Positions 5,928 through 30,048 of a stretch of 64,000 nucleotides of DNA are shown in pieces (position 1 is the first letter of the stretch; each line of letters begins with the position of its first letter). Origin of the DNA: Gemmatimonadota bacterium (lineage in GTDB: Bacteria; Gemmatimonadota; Gemmatimonadetes; Gemmatimonadales; Gemmatimonadaceae); contig JAHFCT010000006.1 in NCBI GenBank assembly GCA_023249375.1, positions 1-64,000 of the forward strand, read 5' to 3'. The position numbers and the translations under genes are program-made. Below the pieces are notes generated by a model. The model worked only from the letters and a program-made list of their open reading frames with translations, made no database searches and was not told where the DNA came from.

Positions 5928-7448
5928 CTACTTCTTCCGCATCCGCTGCACGCGGACCTTGGTCCAGACCACCACCGCCGCGCAGTCCTGCCCCCCCGTC
6001 GTGAACTCCGCCGGCTTCACCGTGCCGCCGTACACCTCGATTGCCGCGACTTCGTTTGGCTGGAGGAACGAGTCGAGGTCGTTGGCCTCGAGCTGGCGCC
6101 ACGGCGCGCCGTCGACGAAGACCGTGACGCAGCTGCCGGCTCCCGTAGCGCCGCGCGTCGCGACGAGCTGCAGGTTGTTGTTGCTGCCAGATTCCACGCG
6201 GATGCCCGGCACGGTCCGCAGCAGGTCGGTGAAATGCGAAGCATCCCGGCGCTCGATGAGGTCGGTGTCGAGAAACGTCCCGCCCAATCCGCCTCGTTTG
6301 CGCTCGGTGAAGCCGACCTTCTGCAATCCGTCCTCTCGCGCCGAGATGATTTCAACCGGTGCGAGTTCCGTGACGGCGCCGCCAATCATCACGGTGACAC
6401 GCGCCGGCGACAGCGCGGACAACTCGACCGGATACTCGATTGGACGGAATCCGATCTTGCGTACGACGAGCGACTGCGTTCCCGAAGGAAGCGAATCGAG
6501 AAAGAACTCGCCGCTGCCGCGCGTCACCGTGGCCATGCTGAACCCCATCAGCCCGACGCGCGCGCCTCCGACCGCCATCCCACCCGCGCTCAACACGCGT
6601 CCCGACGCGCGCGCCAGATAGCGCGGGCCCTGCGCTCCCGCACTGTCGGTGCCGCGCAGCGCAGCGACGCTCAGGCTGCGCAGCGAGAGCAATCCAGCGG
6701 ACTGCGTGACCGCCACCTCGGCCGTGGCGTCGCCTTCCTTGCGCTGCGCCTGCAGCTTGCCGTCGAACGCTTCGGGCAGGCCGCAGAGGCGATACGTGCC
6801 GTCCTTGTCCACCGTGGTCGAGCGAATGCGCGGTGTCTTCTTCATCAAGCCGCGCGCCTGCAGGCCGAGCACGTCCGGATCGTACCAGACCACGGACACG
6901 CGTGCGCCGGGGATTGACTCGCCAGTGTCCGGATCACGCACACGCCCTACGAGCGCACCCGGGCCAAGCGCTCGTCGCGCGGCCGGGCACAAGTGCGCGA
7001 TGAGCGTCTCGCCCCCGGGCACCGCCAGCACCGCATGCGACGTGTCGCCCTTCACGAAGGTGATCGTATCGGACGCGAGCGAAATGCCGATGGTGTCGAG
7101 CACGGGATGATCGATGCCCAGCCGATATCGCCCCGGCGGAATGCTGTCGATGATGAAATGGCCGAGCGAGTCGGCGACGCCATGTCGCACGGTGCCTTCG
7201 ACGGTCACCACCGCGCCGGAAAGTGGCTGGCTGTGCAGCGAGTCGACGGCCATGCCGTCGAGGACGGCGAACGGCGATCGGGCCGCAAAGAGGGGGAGCG
7301 CCGGCGGACGTCTGGCCGTGTCTGGCTTGGCGGTCTCCTTAGGGGCCGCCGGTTTGGCCGGCAGCCTCGTTTGCACGCGCTGCGCGAACGCCGGCGTGGC
7401 GACGGGAAGCAGCCCCGCGAGGAGAACCGACAGTCGAAGCAGGCGCAT
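5928..7448 (-). CDS. Exported carboxypeptidase-regulatory-like protein with a TonB-plug-like C-terminus
   Basis: A 506-residue protein with a clear signal peptide (residues 1-22, ending PAFA-QR). Carboxypeptidase regulatory-like beta-sandwich units follow: FAVLDGMAVDSLHSQPLSGA at about 60, GRVRDPDTGESIPGARVSV at about 165, and SGRVLSAGGMAVGGARVGL at about 285. The last 120 residues look like a TonB-receptor plug (ASHFTDLLRTVPGIRVESG, then GSCVTVFVDGAPWRQLEAND and IEVYGG). The transmembrane barrel is absent, so this is not a complete TonB-dependent receptor. Such proteins are common in Gemmatimonadota, with unknown function. A near relative lies at 10178-11344 on the other strand. Confidence 0.78.
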   Translation of the reverse strand: MRLLRLSVLLAGLLPVATPAFAQRVQTRLPAKPAAPKETAKPDTARRPPALPLFAARSPFAVLDGMAVDSLHSQPLSGAVVTVEGTVRHGVADSLGHFIIDSIPPGRYRLGIDHPVLDTIGISLASDTITFVKGDTSHAVLAVPGGETLIAHLCPAARRALGPGALVGRVRDPDTGESIPGARVSVVWYDPDVLGLQARGLMKKTPRIRSTTVDKDGTYRLCGLPEAFDGKLQAQRKEGDATAEVAVTQSAGLLSLRSLSVAALRGTDSAGAQGPRYLARASGRVLSAGGMAVGGARVGLMGFSMATVTRGSGEFFLDSLPSGTQSLVVRKIGFRPIEYPVELSALSPARVTVMIGGAVTELAPVEIISAREDGLQKVGFTERKRGGLGGTFLDTDLIERRDASHFTDLLRTVPGIRVESGSNNNLQLVATRGATGAGSCVTVFVDGAPWRQLEANDLDSFLQPNEVAAIEVYGGTVKPAEFTTGGQDCAAVVVWTKVRVQRMRKK

Positions 7449-21481: not shown

Positions 21482-21511
21482 TTGACCATCGGCTGTGACG
21501 CCGAATAGCAC
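21482..21511 (+). promoter_or_regulatory. Weak candidate promoter for the ECF sigma operon
   Basis: TTGACC (21482-21487), an 18-base spacer, then TAGCAC (21506-21511), in the 300-base gap between the divergent aldehyde dehydrogenase and sigma genes. The -10 match is poor. An autoregulated ECF-type promoter is equally likely and has no consensus I can test here. Apart from this I see nothing in the gap. Confidence 0.22.
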
Positions 21512-21686
21512 TGGCGGGTATGTGCAAGTGTAGCCGTTGGCGATGAGATGTGATGCCTGCTGTCTGAGCTTATCCGTAAGATGTTGCGCTACAACAAGTT
21601 GCTAGCTTCCGGTGGTGCGCGCTGGCGTTGGTGCGGCGATCACATCGGGTTTGGGCTCGTTGAAGGTTCTCTCGAAGCGGAGAGCG

Positions 21687-22316
21687 ATGTCATCGCGATC
21701 ACGGCGTACAGGAGCGGTAGCGAGGGAGGAGTCGCCCAAGGTATTGTGGGCTATCCAACCCGCCGACCCGATCCCTGTGCGACCGAGTACCGACATCGAT
21801 CCCGCCATCCCGTTGCGAGCGCGCAGTGGGGATGCCGCGGCGTTTGCTGCGCTCGTGGAGTTCTTCCATGTGCGATGCATGCGATACGCGCGGTACATGC
21901 TGGGTGACGAAGAAGATGCAGAAGAGGCGGTGCAGGACACGTTTCTGAGAGTGTACGACCACCTCGAGCAGTTCCGGCCGGATGCACGGTTTGAGCCTTG
22001 GCTCTTCCGGATTCTGGCCAACCGGTGCCGGACGGTGCGGGACCGGCGGCGCCGGCGGGAATCGCTGGTGACCACGGGCGAGCTGCCTGCGGTCGCGGCG
22101 GCATCAACGGAGATATCGCGGGACTTCCTGGAAGAGGTGGAGGCGGCGCTCGAAGACCTCCCCACCGAGCAGCGGGAAGCGTTCCTGCTGCGGCACGTGG
22201 AAGATCTGTCGTACGAGGACATGGCGGTCATTACCGGGGTGCGGCTCTCCGCACTTCGCATGCGGGTGAAGCGCGCGTGTGACACGCTGCGCACCCGGCT
22301 GCAACAGGAGATGTGA
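21687..22316 (+). CDS. ECF-type RNA polymerase sigma factor
   Basis: Start placed at ATG 21687 (209 residues); the frame is open to 21612 and the exact start is uncertain. Region 2 spans about residues 50-115 (RYARYMLGDEEDAEEAVQDT, then FRPDARFEPWLFRILANRC). Region 4 is the helix-turn-helix at the end (EDLPTEQREAFLLRHVEDLS, then AVITGVRLSALRMRVKRA). No extra C-terminal domain. The next gene begins one base after the stop and encodes a single-pass membrane protein with a cytoplasmic N-terminus, the usual arrangement for an anti-sigma factor. The stimulus is unknown. Confidence 0.9.
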   Translation: MSSRSRRTGAVAREESPKVLWAIQPADPIPVRPSTDIDPAIPLRARSGDAAAFAALVEFFHVRCMRYARYMLGDEEDAEEAVQDTFLRVYDHLEQFRPDARFEPWLFRILANRCRTVRDRRRRRESLVTTGELPAVAAASTEISRDFLEEVEAALEDLPTEQREAFLLRHVEDLSYEDMAVITGVRLSALRMRVKRACDTLRTRLQQEM

Positions 22317-22317
22317 C

Positions 22318-22902
22318 GTGGACGTCGAACGCGATGAACTGATTGAGCGGGCCACCGCGACGCTGCAGCGGCGGCAGACACCGAATCCGCGCGTGGTCTC
22401 GCGGATTCTTGGGGTGGTCGATGGGCGACCGCGCCGCTGGTGGCGCGCGGTCACGTGGCCATCGACGCCGTTCTCGCTCGCGGCCACCGCCACGCTGGCC
22501 GCCGCGGGTCTGCTGCTCGGGTTCCTGTCGCGCGAAGCCGCCGACGGGCCGTTCCGCGCCGCGCCCGACGTCAATGTCCCCGGCGCGCAGATGTTGCCGG
22601 TGGTCCCGGCGTCCCGCACTGGCGAGGCGATGCCGGTGCCGGTGCAGTTCACGCTGCGCGGCGTGCGCGCCTCGCAGGTTGCGCTGGTGGGTGACTTCAA
22701 TGGCTGGTCGCAGACGGCGACGCCGCTCGAACCCGGTACGTCGGCGGATACGTGGAGCGTGACCGTACCGCTGTCGGCGGGACGCCATCAGTACGCATTC
22801 GTGGTGGACGGCAGGACCTGGATGACGGATCCTCGTGCGCAAAGGGCGCAAGATCTGGACTTCGGGCGTGAAAACTCCGTACTTATCGTGCAGGCACCGT
22901 AA
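22318..22902 (+). CDS. Putative membrane anti-sigma factor with a CBM48/AMPK-type glycogen-binding domain
   Basis: GTG start, one base after the sigma stop (194 residues). The cytoplasmic N-terminus (1-48; ERDELIERATATLQRRQTPN) precedes one membrane helix (about 52-70, FSLAATATLAAAGLLLGFL). The exported part ends in an AMPK/CBM48-like beta sandwich (about 105-194). Its hallmark turn is VALVGDFNGWSQTATPL, followed by WSVTVPLSAGRHQYAFVVDG and WMTDPRA. The domain normally binds glycogen or related alpha-glucans. Gene order suggests an anti-sigma role, with the glucan-like domain as sensor. No zinc-finger anti-sigma motif was seen, so the role is inferred. The stop overlaps the next start as TAATG. 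Confidence 0.72.
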   Translation: MDVERDELIERATATLQRRQTPNPRVVSRILGVVDGRPRRWWRAVTWPSTPFSLAATATLAAAGLLLGFLSREAADGPFRAAPDVNVPGAQMLPVVPASRTGEAMPVPVQFTLRGVRASQVALVGDFNGWSQTATPLEPGTSADTWSVTVPLSAGRHQYAFVVDGRTWMTDPRAQRAQDLDFGRENSVLIVQAP

Positions 22903-23540
22903 TGACACTTCGCCGTTTGTTCCTCATCCCGCTTGCGTCCGTCGCCGCCGTCACTGCGGCGCAGGCGCAGGTTGCGCGCCTCGACGCCTCTGCGGACGCT
23001 GGACTCCGCCGCGCCGTCGAGCGTGAGTTCATGGCCGCTCGGGCCATCGGACTTCCCGCGAGCCTGCTGATTGCCAAGGCCAACGAGGGGATCGCCAAGC
23101 GGGCCACGCCGAAGCGCATTACCGATGCCGTCGCCGCCCTTGGAAAGCGGCTGCAGGTTGCGCGCGACCAGCTCGCGCCCAACCCAAGCGAGGACGAGAT
23201 TGCTGCCGGCGCCGACGCGCTCTACGTCGGTGTCCCCGCGCCCATCCTGAAAAAGATGCGCGCGGCGTGGCCCACCCGGTCATTGGCACTCCCCCTCGGC
23301 GTGCTCACTGAGCTCGTCGCGAAGGGACTGTCGCCGGAACGCGCTGCCCAGACGGTCACTGACCTGATGACACGCGGAGCCACCAACGTGCAGCTCTACG
23401 CGCTCGCGCAGTCGGTCCAAGGCGACGTCGCCGCCGGCTGGGCGCCGGAAGCTGCACTCGATTTGCGCGCCCGCGGGGTGATGTCGCTCCTGCCACCTGC
23501 CCCCGCCGCGTCCGCGTTCACCAATCCGCGGAGGCCGTGA
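22902..23540 (+). CDS. Exported protein of unknown function in the ECF sigma operon
   Basis: A 212-residue protein with a signal peptide (residues 1-22, cleavage after AQA). The mature part is helical, alanine-rich, with no cysteine. It repeats short motifs such as LIAKANEGIAKRATPKRI and LVAKGLSPERAAQTVTDLMT, suggesting a periplasmic helical-bundle protein. It has no recognised domain. The start overlaps the stop of the putative anti-sigma factor, and the barrel protein follows 10 bases later, so all four genes should be co-expressed. Confidence 0.65.
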   Translation: MTLRRLFLIPLASVAAVTAAQAQVARLDASADAGLRRAVEREFMAARAIGLPASLLIAKANEGIAKRATPKRITDAVAALGKRLQVARDQLAPNPSEDEIAAGADALYVGVPAPILKKMRAAWPTRSLALPLGVLTELVAKGLSPERAAQTVTDLMTRGATNVQLYALAQSVQGDVAAGWAPEAALDLRARGVMSLLPPAPAASAFTNPRRP

Positions 23541-23550
23541 TACCCATGCG

Positions 23551-24696
23551 ATGAGGGGTCCCGTTGCCGCTTGCTTGCTGATCGCCGCGATGCGCAGTGC
23601 GGCGGCGCAGGCCCCTGATGAGTTTCGCGTGGAAGCGGGTGTCGCCGAGGTGCGGCAGGCCGGGAACCGGTCCCGTACCGCGGGCCTGGCGGGCCTTACA
23701 TGGCGCCGAACGCAGGAACGGCTGACGACGACGGCCAGCGGGTCGGTCACGGCCGCCAATGATTCCATTGACACGGCGCAGGGACTGCTGGCGCTTCGCT
23801 ACCGGTTCAACCGGTTTCCGCACTGGCACGTCGAATCCGGCGTGGCGGGTGCGCTCTTTGGCTTGACGTCGCTGACCGGCGGCGGCAATGTCGCCGGCTT
23901 CACGCGCGTGCAGCACTCGTACGGACCGCGCGGGGTGTGGGCCGGCGGCGCGTCCGGCTTGACGAATCGCAAGGCGAACAGCATGCAGTCGTCGGCGTTC
24001 GATGTGGGCGCCTGGGGCGAGTTCAAGCGAACGTCGGGGTCTCTGGCCGCTGTGGTAACACGTTCATACGACGCCGATCTGCTGGCCGCGAGCAGTTTGC
24101 CGTCGCGGCGTCCGGTCGGCGTGTACATGGTGCGCGACGCGACGCTCACGCTGCAGCAGACCTTTGCCGCGCTCGATTTCGCCGCCATCGGCACCGTGCG
24201 CGGCGGTGAAGGCGTGACGGCAAGGGTCAACGATCGGGCCCTGATGCTCGCGGCGGCGTTCTATCTGTCGCCCGTCGTGGCGTTGACCGTGTCGGGTGGG
24301 CGCCAGCTGGCCGATCCGCTGCGCGCCCTGCCCGATGCGAGATTCCTCGCCGCCTCCGTGCGCGTGCTCTTTCTGCGGCGTGATCCGGCGGTGCTCAACA
24401 TCGACCGCTATGGCGCGATCGCGCTCATGAAGGCCGCACCGGACGGCGGCGCCACCGTGACGATTCGCGTGCTCGCCAACGCGTCCGCGCGCGTCGAAGC
24501 CTATGGCACGTTCAGCGGGTGGCAGCCGGTGCGCATGCAGTGGGTGCTCGACGCGTGGGAGCTTCAGGTGCACGTGCCGCCCGGACCACAGCGCGTCGCG
24601 GTGCGCATCAACGGCAGCCAGTGGCGCGCACCGGCGAACCTGACCAAGGTGACGGACGAGTTTGGCGGCGAAGCGGGGCTCCTTGTGGTGCCGTGA
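23551..24696 (+). CDS. Outer-membrane barrel-like protein with a C-terminal CBM48-like domain
   Basis: A 381-residue exported protein (signal peptide 1-20, cleavage near AAAQ-AP). Residues 25-280 show alternating amphipathic strands typical of an outer-membrane barrel (LTTTASGSVTAANDSIDTAQ, GLLALRYRFNRFPHWHVESG, LAAVVTRSYDADLLAASSL). Residues 295-381 form a second glycogen-binding-like sandwich: VTIRVLANASARVEAYGTFS, GWQPVRMQWVLDAWELQVHV, then RVAVRINGSQW. This is the fourth gene of the sigma operon, and its last domain mirrors that of the putative anti-sigma factor. The likely role is envelope sensing or polysaccharide contact. Fold calls are by pattern, not by search. Confidence 0.62.
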   Translation: MRGPVAACLLIAAMRSAAAQAPDEFRVEAGVAEVRQAGNRSRTAGLAGLTWRRTQERLTTTASGSVTAANDSIDTAQGLLALRYRFNRFPHWHVESGVAGALFGLTSLTGGGNVAGFTRVQHSYGPRGVWAGGASGLTNRKANSMQSSAFDVGAWGEFKRTSGSLAAVVTRSYDADLLAASSLPSRRPVGVYMVRDATLTLQQTFAALDFAAIGTVRGGEGVTARVNDRALMLAAAFYLSPVVALTVSGGRQLADPLRALPDARFLAASVRVLFLRRDPAVLNIDRYGAIALMKAAPDGGATVTIRVLANASARVEAYGTFSGWQPVRMQWVLDAWELQVHVPPGPQRVAVRINGSQWRAPANLTKVTDEFGGEAGLLVVP

Positions 24697-26558: not shown

Positions 26559-27293
26559 ATGGCTGCGAAGAAGAAGCCCTCTGCGAAGAAGAAGTTGGCG
26601 GCAAACAAAGCGCCGGCTCTGAAGAAGAAGCCGGCGGCAACGAAGGCGCCGGCTCTGAAGAAGAAGCCGGCGGCAACGAAGGCGCCGGCTCTGAAGAAGA
26701 AGACGGCTCTGAAGAAGAGACCGACCGCCGCACGGAGGCCGGCAGCAAAGCCCGCACTCGAGGCATCGCAGTTTGCGACGAAGGACGGCGGGCCGTGGGG
26801 CAAGTGCTTCCTGCCGCGCATCGATGGCGAGCGGCGCTGCTGGCTGGTGAAGTCCGAACCTGAAACGTTCTCATGGGACGATCTGCTCGCGTCGCCGAAT
26901 GGAACGACGCACTGGGACGGCGTGCGCAACTTCGCGGCGCGGAATTTTCTGCGCGACGGCATGCGGGTGGGTGATCAGGTGTTCTTCTATCATTCGAGCT
27001 CGGAGCCCGCGGCGATTGTCGGCGTCTGCGACGTTGCGCACGCGCCGTATCCTGATCCCACGGCGTTTGATCCGGCGCATCCGGGATTCGATGAGGCGTC
27101 GTCGCTTGCGGCTCCCACCTGGTTCGTCGTGGACATTCGCGCGGTGGAATCGCTCAAACGTCCGGTCACGCTTGCCATGATCAAGAAAGAGAAGACGCTG
27201 GCGCAGATGGCGCTGCTGCGCATCGGCCGGCTGTCGGTGACGCCGGTGACCGCGGCGGAGTGGAAGACGATCATTGGCATGTCGCAGGGCTGA
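26559..27293 (+). CDS. EVE-domain protein with an N-terminal histone-H1-like Lys/Ala/Pro tail
   Basis: Start at 26559 (MAAKKKPSAKKK), preceded by AGGG seven bases upstream; ATG 26544 is in frame and possible. Residues 1-65 are a lysine, alanine and proline repeat region (KKPAATKAPALKK repeated), like the tails of bacterial H1-type nucleoid proteins. Residues 95-244 are an EVE domain (PUA-like fold): RCWLVKSEPETFSWDDLL, THWDGVRNFAARNFLRDGM and GDQVFFYHSSSEPAAIVGVC. EVE domains recognise modified bases in DNA or RNA, so this could be a DNA-bound reader of methylated cytosine. The next gene starts five bases after the stop. Confidence 0.85.
   Translation: MAAKKKPSAKKKLAANKAPALKKKPAATKAPALKKKPAATKAPALKKKTALKKRPTAARRPAAKPALEASQFATKDGGPWGKCFLPRIDGERRCWLVKSEPETFSWDDLLASPNGTTHWDGVRNFAARNFLRDGMRVGDQVFFYHSSSEPAAIVGVCDVAHAPYPDPTAFDPAHPGFDEASSLAAPTWFVVDIRAVESLKRPVTLAMIKKEKTLAQMALLRIGRLSVTPVTAAEWKTIIGMSQG
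26585..26692. repeat. 36-bp tandem repeat coding the basic tail
   Basis: Three directly adjacent 36-base units starting GAAGAAGAAG and ending GCGCCGGCTCT: 26585-26620, 26621-26656 and 26657-26692, with a shortened fourth. Units two and three are identical and unit one has a few changes. This points to recent duplication by slippage, so tail length is likely variable between strains. Confidence 0.85.
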
Positions 27294-27297
27294 GCAC

Positions 27298-30048
27298 ATG
27301 TTCGCGGGTCGCCGCGGGATCGCATGGGTGTTGCCGCTGATGCTCGCGGGCGCGGCGTCGCTGTCCGCTCAAGAGCCGACGCGGGCTCCATCGCAGGCGC
27401 CGGCGCCGATGCGCGCACGGGAACAACGGCCAGGCGCCCGTCCGGCGCCGTGGATGGACTCGCGGATTGCCGCCGCCAAGCGCGCGCAGCTGCTGCTCGC
27501 CCGGATGAACCTCGACGAGAAGTTCTGGCAGCTCTTCATGATCCCCGGCGATCCCGTGCGCGACACCGCGGCCTTTGCCCACGGGGCGTACGGTGTGCAG
27601 CTGCTCGACCTGCGCGGCGAGGCGCACCCGGTGGAGAGCCGGTGGGCCGCGGCGGCTCGCGCCGATTCGGTGCAGCGCTTCTTCGTCGAGCGCACCCGCC
27701 TCGGCATACCGGCGATTCTCTTTGAAGAAGGCGTGCACGGACTCATGCAGCAGGGCGCGACGGCGTTTCCGCAGGCCATCGCGCTGGCGGCGACGTTCGA
27801 TACGGCGCTCGTCGGAAGCATCGCGCGCGAGATCGCAGAGCAGTCGCGCGAACGCGGCGTGCGGCAGCTGCTGTCGCCGGTGATCAATCTGGCGCGTGAC
27901 CCGCGATGGGGGCGCGTGGAAGAGACATACGGCGAAGACGCGCAGCTGAGCAGCGCCATGGGCGTGGCGTTCGTTCGCGCGCTCGAGCAGGCGGGCGTCG
28001 TGGCGACGCCCAAGCACTTCGTCGCCAACTACGGCGACGGCGGCCGCGATTCCTACCCGATTGCACTCGACCGTGCGACACTCACGGACCTCTACTTTCC
28101 GCCATTCCGCGCCGCCATCGCCAACGGCGGCGCGCGATCGATCATGGCGTCGTACAACAGCGTGAACGGGCTGCCGGCATCCGCGAGCGCCGACCTGCTC
28201 ACCCGCACACTGCGCGGCGAATGGAAATTTGGCGGTGTCGTCGTCGCCGACCAAGGCGGCGTGGGCGGCGCCAATGTCCTGCACCACACGGCGTCGGACT
28301 ACGCCGACGCGACCGTGCGCGCGATGCGCGCCGGACTCGACGTGATCTTTCAAGGAAGCGCACCAGACGCCCGCCTGTTCTGGCCGGCGTTCCGCGACGG
28401 CAAGGTGCCGCGCGCCGTCGTGGACACCGCGGTGCTTCGCGTGTTGCGCCTGAAGTTCGCGCTCGGGCTCTTCGACCATCCGTATGTCTCCGATCCCGCG
28501 CGTGATCCGCAGCGCGCCGAGCCGGAGCGACGCGCGGCCCAGACAGATCTCGCGCGCGCTGCCGCCGAAGGTTCCATCGTACTCCTCCGCAACGAGCACG
28601 CCGGGCTGCCGTGGCGCGACGACGTCGCGCGCATCGCGGTCATCGGCGAAGGCGCCGACTCGATTCCGCTTGGCGGATACAGCGTTCGCCCGCAGCACAT
28701 GCGCTCGCTGATCGACGAGCTGAACGCGCGTCGGCCGGGAATGGACACGGTGCTCCATGCGCCGGGGCCTGGGCTCGGCAAGCCCATCTGGGGCGTCGTC
28801 GATCGGAGCGCACTCGCGCACGACTCGCTTGGCGCGGCGACGCTGGGATTGCGCGCCGAGTATTTCGCGACGGGCACAGTGGAAGGCGCGCCCGCGTCGG
28901 TGCGTGTGGACGGCGGCGTCGATTTCAACTGGACGTTCATGCGCCCGACACGCGGACTGGGCACCGACTGGTATTCCGTACGGTGGACCGGATCGGTGAA
29001 CGTGCCCGCCGGCGACAGCGTGCGCGTGGCCGTCGAGGGGGACGACGGCTATCGGCTCTGGCTGGACGGTGCGCTGGTCGTGGATGCGAATCGGAAGGTG
29101 TCGTACGGCGTGCGTGCGGCACCCGGCCGGCTCTCCCCCGGGCGTCATGCGCTGCGCCTCGAATACCGGCAGACCACCGGGACCGGGCGCATTCGCCTGC
29201 TCTGGGACAAGCACTCGGCTGAAGCGGCACGTGCCCAAGCGGCGCACCTCGACGCGGCGGTTGCCATTGCGCGCCGCGCCGACGTGGCGCTGATCACGGT
29301 CGGCGTGGATGAAGGAGAGTTTCGTGATCGCTCGTCGTTGCACCTGCCTGGCCGGCAGGAAGAACTGATCGAGCGAGTGGCGAGTACGGGCACGCCGGTG
29401 GTCGTTGTGGTGTTCGCGGGCGGAGCGGTGATCACCTCGCCGTGGATGGAACGCGTTGGGGCAGTGCTGTATGCGTTCTATCCGGGAGAGGCGGGCGCCG
29501 AGGCCATCGCGAAGGTGTTGTTCGGCAAGGTGAACCCGTCGGGACGGATGCCGTACACCGTGCCACGCTTCGAGGGACAGTTGCCGCTGGTGTACGATCA
29601 CCTGCCCACCGGACGCGGCGACGATTATGTGGACCTCACCGGCCAGCCGCTCTTTCCGTTTGGCTTCGGGCTGTCGTACACGGAGTTCTCGTATCGCGAC
29701 CTCACGTTGTCGCGGCCAGTCATGTCGTCCGCAGACACGGTGCACGTGCGGATGCTGGTCAAGAACGTCGGCATGCGGGCGGGGTTTGAAGTTGTTCAGC
29801 TCTACGTGCGCCACGTCACGGCACCTACGGCGCAGCCAGTGCTGGCGCTGCGCGACTTTGCGCGCGTGTGGTTGAATGCGGGCGAGGAGCGGGCGGTTGA
29901 GTTTGCGCTGCCGGCCGGTGCGCTGGCCGTGCGCGATGAGAGCGGTCGCGTGGTGCTCACCGACGGGGAGGTCACGCTGTACGTTGGGGCGTCATCGCGC
30001 GACATTCGCCTGCGCACGACGTTGCAGACACAAGGAGCCCGGAAGTGA
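27298..30048 (+). CDS. GH3 family beta-glycosidase with an inserted PA14 domain
   Basis: A 916-residue exported enzyme (signal peptide about 1-26, ASLSAQEP). The GH3 N-domain covers 45-335, with the nucleophile in VVVADQGGVGG (Asp318). The second domain (about 425-760) is interrupted by a PA14 domain at 518-640 (GLRAEYFATGTVEGAP, AVEGDDGYRLWLDGALVV). It resumes with ADVALITVGVDEGEFRDRSS and GRQEELIERVASTG. A fibronectin-III-like domain ends the protein (FGFGLSYTEFSYRDLTLS). Likely beta-glucosidase or beta-xylosidase acting on oligosaccharides. Start ATG 27298 lies five bases after the EVE gene; its stop overlaps the next start (GTGA). Confidence 0.93.
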   Translation: MFAGRRGIAWVLPLMLAGAASLSAQEPTRAPSQAPAPMRAREQRPGARPAPWMDSRIAAAKRAQLLLARMNLDEKFWQLFMIPGDPVRDTAAFAHGAYGVQLLDLRGEAHPVESRWAAAARADSVQRFFVERTRLGIPAILFEEGVHGLMQQGATAFPQAIALAATFDTALVGSIAREIAEQSRERGVRQLLSPVINLARDPRWGRVEETYGEDAQLSSAMGVAFVRALEQAGVVATPKHFVANYGDGGRDSYPIALDRATLTDLYFPPFRAAIANGGARSIMASYNSVNGLPASASADLLTRTLRGEWKFGGVVVADQGGVGGANVLHHTASDYADATVRAMRAGLDVIFQGSAPDARLFWPAFRDGKVPRAVVDTAVLRVLRLKFALGLFDHPYVSDPARDPQRAEPERRAAQTDLARAAAEGSIVLLRNEHAGLPWRDDVARIAVIGEGADSIPLGGYSVRPQHMRSLIDELNARRPGMDTVLHAPGPGLGKPIWGVVDRSALAHDSLGAATLGLRAEYFATGTVEGAPASVRVDGGVDFNWTFMRPTRGLGTDWYSVRWTGSVNVPAGDSVRVAVEGDDGYRLWLDGALVVDANRKVSYGVRAAPGRLSPGRHALRLEYRQTTGTGRIRLLWDKHSAEAARAQAAHLDAAVAIARRADVALITVGVDEGEFRDRSSLHLPGRQEELIERVASTGTPVVVVVFAGGAVITSPWMERVGAVLYAFYPGEAGAEAIAKVLFGKVNPSGRMPYTVPRFEGQLPLVYDHLPTGRGDDYVDLTGQPLFPFGFGLSYTEFSYRDLTLSRPVMSSADTVHVRMLVKNVGMRAGFEVVQLYVRHVTAPTAQPVLALRDFARVWLNAGEERAVEFALPAGALAVRDESGRVVLTDGEVTLYVGASSRDIRLRTTLQTQGARK

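Follow-up and report, generated by a model that had tools for sequence, protein, structure and literature searches.

The sigma-E/RseA/RseB system of E. coli joins an ECF sigma factor to a membrane anti-sigma factor, a soluble periplasmic partner and an outer-membrane barrel link, and CBM48 domains are absent from it. The FecI/FecR/FecA system resembles the predicted layout of the operon described below in its ECF sigma factor, in its membrane anti-sigma factor with a periplasmic C-terminus, and in the adjacent outer-membrane barrel with a periplasmic domain (PMC9249621). In Clostridium thermocellum, the anti-sigma factor RsgI has a C-terminal carbohydrate-binding module; likeness to SigI/RsgI extends to a putative anti-sigma factor with one membrane span, an external carbohydrate-binding module, and multiple paralogs, which in SigI/RsgI are for different ligands (PMC12203970). 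The sugar contacts of the CBM48 domain of AMPK, which in animals serves to sense glycogen, are W100, K126, W133, L146 and T148; glycogen binding is lost when these residues are mutated, and in a W100G/W133A double mutant both glycogen binding and sensing are lost (PMC2642990).

Gemmatimonadetes are common in soil and freshwater, and their signalling has been little studied. In this study, we examine a sigma factor operon from a 3.8 Mb genome with close relatives that bear the label Gemmatimonas or Gemmatimonadetes. The operon lies in a stretch of 64,000 nucleotides, referred to here in its entirety as the window. The gene set is class-wide in Gemmatimonadetes, often multi-copy and apparently autoregulated, which goes beyond the single operon first noted.

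The operon and its gene products

Four plus-strand genes within 21687-24696 of the window encode, in order, a sigma factor, a CBM48 membrane protein, a helical protein and a beta barrel, and are separated by 1 nt, -1 nt (a TAATG overlap) and 10 nt. The close packing reported in the preliminary description is thus confirmed, and the observation holds more strongly than first stated; because the identical gene set recurs across the class, the operon is not a chance product. Genes for an aldehyde dehydrogenase and an aminotransferase flank the module in the genus, as they do in two further genera (L060, L061), and the neighbours vary across the order, which fits a self-contained unit. A gene for a secreted GH3-type glycosidase lies a few kb downstream of the operon (27274-30048, plus strand), and a counterpart lies in the flanks retrieved for 4 of the 10 same-genus loci, some of which were too short to tell.

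Gene 1 (21687-22316) encodes a protein of 209 aa that matches Sigma70_r2 (E=3.6e-15) and r4_2 (E=4.2e-14) in Pfam, and TIGR02937 above its cut-off. Only Sigma70 regions 2 and 4 are present, which bears out the assignment as an ECF-type sigma factor. An N-terminal extension precedes residue ~45 and a TTG near 21744 is an alternative start; the ATG occupies a constant alignment position within the genus. In a tree of 61 module sigmas and 13 other sigma factors from the host genome, 59 of the 61 fall in one clade (support 0.90), separate from the other sigmas, and none of the CBM48, helical and barrel genes adjoins the closest other host sigma (C11:126639). In a study of ECF/anti-sigma coevolution, about 79% of Gemmatimonadetes ECFs were paired with class I anti-sigmas (PMC7406223), so the module may or may not belong to an already numbered ECF group.

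The gene 2 product (22318-22902) has an N-terminus of ~50 residues, an Arg-rich flank and then one hydrophobic span at residues 52-70 (22471-22527); a span was detected in 56 of 59 gene 2 proteins. Beyond it, residues 107-192 (22636-22896) match AMPK1_CBM (PF16561, E=5.1e-12, 46.3 bits against a cut-off of 26.8), and PF02922 is matched at 32.6 bits against a cut-off of 22.4. All 25 relatives searched match both CBM48 models, and against the PDB the domain finds AMPK beta chains at E~1e-4. The protein is therefore, by predicted topology, the single-pass membrane protein with an exported CBM48-like domain that had been proposed. No Pfam anti-sigma model, class I or zinc, was matched in the cytosolic part of 25 gene 2 family members. 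Near-absolute adjacency to a sigma gene and an anti-sigma-like topology nevertheless make it a candidate membrane anti-sigma factor.

The gene 3 product (22902-23540) begins with an export signal that ends in A-Q, the Gln being invariant across the family, and continues into nine helices forming an all-helical fold (AF2, pLDDT 90.8), in agreement with its earlier description as an exported helical protein. It has no Pfam or NCBIfam match, and its model no PDB match at E<0.001. A search of 150 genomes of the phylum detected the family, which has no name as yet, in 97 of them, and it has so far been seen only in Gemmatimonadota. In modules L052 and L092, the barrel gene is followed by another helical paralog (6430-7218 and 6276-7070, respectively).

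Gene 4 (23551-24696) is modelled as a signal helix, 14 beta strands (residues 24-276; 23620-24378) and a strand-rich C-terminal domain (residues 289-380; 24415-24690), with a pLDDT of 83.6 (AF2). The nearest solved folds found by Foldseek are the 14-strand porin OmpG (E=7e-8), CymA (E=3e-6) and other porins, and Porin_4 is matched by 3 of 50 relatives; the modelled resemblance to the carbohydrate porins OmpG and CymA is an architectural likeness only. No recognised plug domain was matched by Pfam in the protein or its relatives. The claim that this outer-membrane-like barrel ends in a CBM48-like domain stands for the family and for the 14-strand model, and falls short for the window's protein taken alone, which reaches no Pfam cut-off (CBM53, E=0.024, under cut-off). 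AMPK1_CBM is matched by 44 of 50 relatives (E<=0.1; the best match has 5e-11), and a PDB search with the family profile recovers the glycogen-binding domain of AMPK beta-1 at E=4.4e-7. For these reasons we consider the call right. The operon thus carries two CBM48 domains predicted to be exported, as originally noted.

Recurrence and promoter motif of the module

Of 60 genomes searched within the order, 52 contain gene 2 relatives, and a single genome has up to eight; the copy number of the module ranges from one to eight per genome. Among 60 loci fetched by the gene 2 match alone, a sigma gene of the same type is adjacent in 59, the helical protein is present in 56, the barrel with CBM48 in 55, and all four genes in 51. 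Gene order is variable, the barrel being last, first or divergent. Another 17 loci, from more distant genomes or families and found through the helical protein only, mostly include a sigma factor and a CBM48 membrane protein and often a barrel, in orders that include sigma-CBM-barrel-helical. Shuffled order with constant content points to a functional unit. Distribution beyond the phylum was followed by a gene 2 scan of genome contigs that reaches close relatives only; a verrucomicrobial match (L041) was rejected as a module, being an ordinary isoamylase-type CBM48.

In the neighbour survey, no glycoside hydrolase or sugar transporter recurred beside the modules. The only recurring functional neighbours are DUF4382-like genes (PF14321 where tested), which lie beside about nine modules (L083, L085, L087, L090, L052, L004, L084, L092 and L094) and may encode an extra partner. 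The host has a second barrel-CBM48 and helical pair (L004 6492-9217; G000:C52, minus strand), which lacks sigma and anti-sigma genes and is followed by a DUF4382-like gene; a pair of this type is also present in another genome (G001, L214).

A conserved motif, TGTGAC-N15..17-GGGTAT, lies upstream of the sigma gene; in the genus it is strongly conserved as TGTGAC-N15/16-GGGTAT. The window's copy, TGTGAC-N16-GGGTAT at 21494-21521 on the plus strand, is the predicted operon promoter. In the genus the strict motif occurs once or twice per genome; 10 of 11 genomes have it at the operon, and a reversed-pattern control gave 0. Outside the genus, NGTGAC-N15-18-GGGTN precedes 23 of 50 module sigma genes, often 35-45 nt ahead of the start codon, as compared to a mean of 0.7 and a maximum of 3 in 100 dinucleotide shuffles. 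In four rearranged modules in which the barrel comes first (L062, L072, L073, L080), the motif is also found upstream of the barrel gene. The presence of the motif before sigma genes and, in rearranged modules, before barrel genes has autoregulation as its simplest reading, with each sigma factor driving transcription of the module that encodes it. Six sigma upstreams (L093, L094, L095, L096, L100, L089) have GTTACC and, ~17 nt later, GTCTCT/CTCTTTAG, seemingly in place of the TGTGAC motif, which suggests diverged promoter specificity among paralogous modules.

In Bacteroidetes polysaccharide loci, sigma factors are found near SusC-like genes. For some other host sigma factors, SusC-like genes are likewise no more than a few kb away (G000:C5 15493-24626; G000:C45 2600-4826), and matches to the operon motif were found upstream of SusC-like transporter genes (L124/L139, L134, L131, L174; the genes include G000:C94, G005:C104 and G006:C125), a possible regulon link. 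A SusC/SusD regulon stays only a lead because several sites (L131, L146, L192, L193) are CRP-like palindromes, TGTGA-N6-TCACG, two of the loci were motif-selected, and the background set included operon promoters as contaminants.

The putative sugar site and possible modes of signalling

All module CBM48 copies, 59 from candidate anti-sigma factors and 56 from barrels, were aligned to the AMPK beta-1 sequence. The W100 position is Trp in every copy (59/59 and 56/56), and the W133 position in 48 of 59 anti-sigma copies and 56 of 56 barrel copies, so that the second Trp is absent from about a fifth of the former. Lys126 is lost in both copies, being mostly Ala in one and Asn or Ala in the other. 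Asn150 is kept in 36 of 59 anti-sigma copies and in none from barrels, which have Val or Ala there; the L146 position is mostly Phe, and T148 is not conserved. Correspondence with AMPK-beta therefore extends to both tryptophans and not to Lys126, and for Asn150 is partial in the anti-sigma copies and absent in the barrel copies. Because the Trp residues are retained in both copies, the aromatic platform seems to be under selection, yet the site differs from that of AMPK. Judged from these alignments, glucan binding by the module domains is plausible.

The reading that we prefer, at a probability of about 0.45, is that the module is a trans-envelope sigma/anti-sigma unit complete in itself, in which each of the two membranes bears a CBM48 acting as sugar sensor or coupling surface, and an alpha-glucan-type ligand releases the sigma factor. 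The gene 2 protein would hold the ECF sigma inactive at the inner membrane and show its CBM48 to the periplasm. The barrel would lie in the outer membrane, its C-terminal CBM48 placed in the periplasm because the strand number is even, and the soluble helical protein would sit between the barrel and the anti-sigma factor. The ligand, for which an alpha-glucan-type oligosaccharide is the likeliest candidate, would enter by way of the barrel, bind the CBM48 domains and alter the contact between barrel, helical protein and anti-sigma factor, and the freed sigma would then transcribe its own operon, barrel included. In a broader form of this reading, a change at the barrel could take the place of the sugar ligand. 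We infer the binding of sigma, the orientation of the gene 2 product, the periplasmic placement of the CBM48 domains, the identity of the ligand, the order of events and the release step. Arguing for this reading are the sigma adjacency in 59 of 60 loci, the full sets in 51 of 60, the sigma clade, the promoter motif, the membrane span and the retained tryptophans, as well as the precedent of carbohydrate-binding sensors on anti-sigma factors in Clostridium RsgI (PMC12203970). Weighing against it are the replaced Lys126, the Val or Ala at the Asn150 position of the barrel, the second Trp missing in about a fifth of anti-sigma copies, the cytosolic part of gene 2 without a known anti-sigma domain, the lack of sugar genes recurring near the modules, and the missing plug domain, which leaves the signalling route of the barrel unexplained. 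It is possible, with the odds leaning against it, that this is a new type of trans-envelope signalling, in which the matched CBM48 domains of the porin-like barrel and the anti-sigma factor recognise one common glucan, or one another, across the periplasm, with the new helical protein as go-between, giving up to eight parallel ligand-specific channels per genome.

The main alternative, a somewhat doubtful one in our estimate, is a sensor of envelope state. Here the CBM48 domains would be protein-docking modules, the barrel CBM48 and the helical protein would keep the CBM48 of the anti-sigma factor in an inactive state, and failed barrel assembly or outer-membrane damage would free the sigma factor, much as misfolded porins release sigma through RseA/RseB. 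The same domain type on both membranes, a helical protein predicted to be soluble and exported, a CBM48 site that is only partly conserved, and modules that are self-contained, with no recurring sugar genes, are all consistent with docking; however, the two tryptophans, surface-exposed in AMPK, are kept almost throughout both copies, a pattern that favours ligand stacking, and up to eight paralogous copies per genome suit many ligands better than a single stress.

It is unlikely that the barrel and helical protein are instead the output, such that the sigma factor answers another signal by making a sugar-grabbing porin and the anti-sigma CBM48 senses only free periplasmic glucan. The motif before barrel genes and the sigma-less barrel and helical pair elsewhere in the genome (L004 7248-9217) agree with an output role, which leaves unexplained why barrel, helical protein and anti-sigma factor stay together class-wide in shuffled orders. 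The lack of a recognised anti-sigma domain in the gene 2 N-terminus would also suit four genes that are merely co-transcribed, with gene 2 not an anti-sigma factor and sigma controlled by its expression level; the near-absolute sigma adjacency and anti-sigma-like topology make this very improbable.

Meaning of the module and comparison with known systems

On the preferred reading or its main rival, the module may serve the cell as a sensor of a sugar polymer or of envelope state. ECF signalling would gain a new type of input from a class-wide, multi-copy sigma module that includes a porin-like barrel, and the module allows one to test directly whether an AMPK-type glycogen domain is used as an exported bacterial sugar sensor. 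Related pairs of sigma factor and promoter are also available in the modules as a ready-made set.

The ECF sigma factor, CBM48 and the 14-strand barrel each belong to a known kind of part. The module itself is apparently undescribed: the preliminary description knew of no system with this four-gene layout, and none was found in the literature searched. The sigma-E/RseA/RseB system is alike in the predicted arrangement outlined at the start, whereas a barrel that belongs to the module, and CBM48, are found in the module only; assignment to this system was rejected, as genes 2 and 3 match neither the RseA nor the RseB families. FecA is a TonB-dependent transporter with a plug and an N-terminal signalling domain, in contrast to the 14-strand module barrel with its C-terminal CBM48 (PMC9249621), and placement with FecIRA was set aside because genes 2 and 4 and their relatives have no FecR, STN or plug match in Pfam. 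SigI/RsgI is Gram-positive, SigI is not an ECF factor, and RsgI, whose self-cleaving domain lies outside the membrane, carries CBM3, CBM42 or PA14 and not CBM48, and has no barrel or helical partner (PMC12203970); gene 2 and its relatives do not match the RsgI N-terminal and autocleaving domains, and this assignment was likewise rejected. With the AMPK beta domain (PMC2642990), the module CBM48 domains have in common the domain family and the two tryptophans that in AMPK stack on the sugar. The AMPK domain is cytosolic, whereas those of the module, which lack Lys126, are predicted to be exported and are carried by a candidate anti-sigma factor and a barrel.
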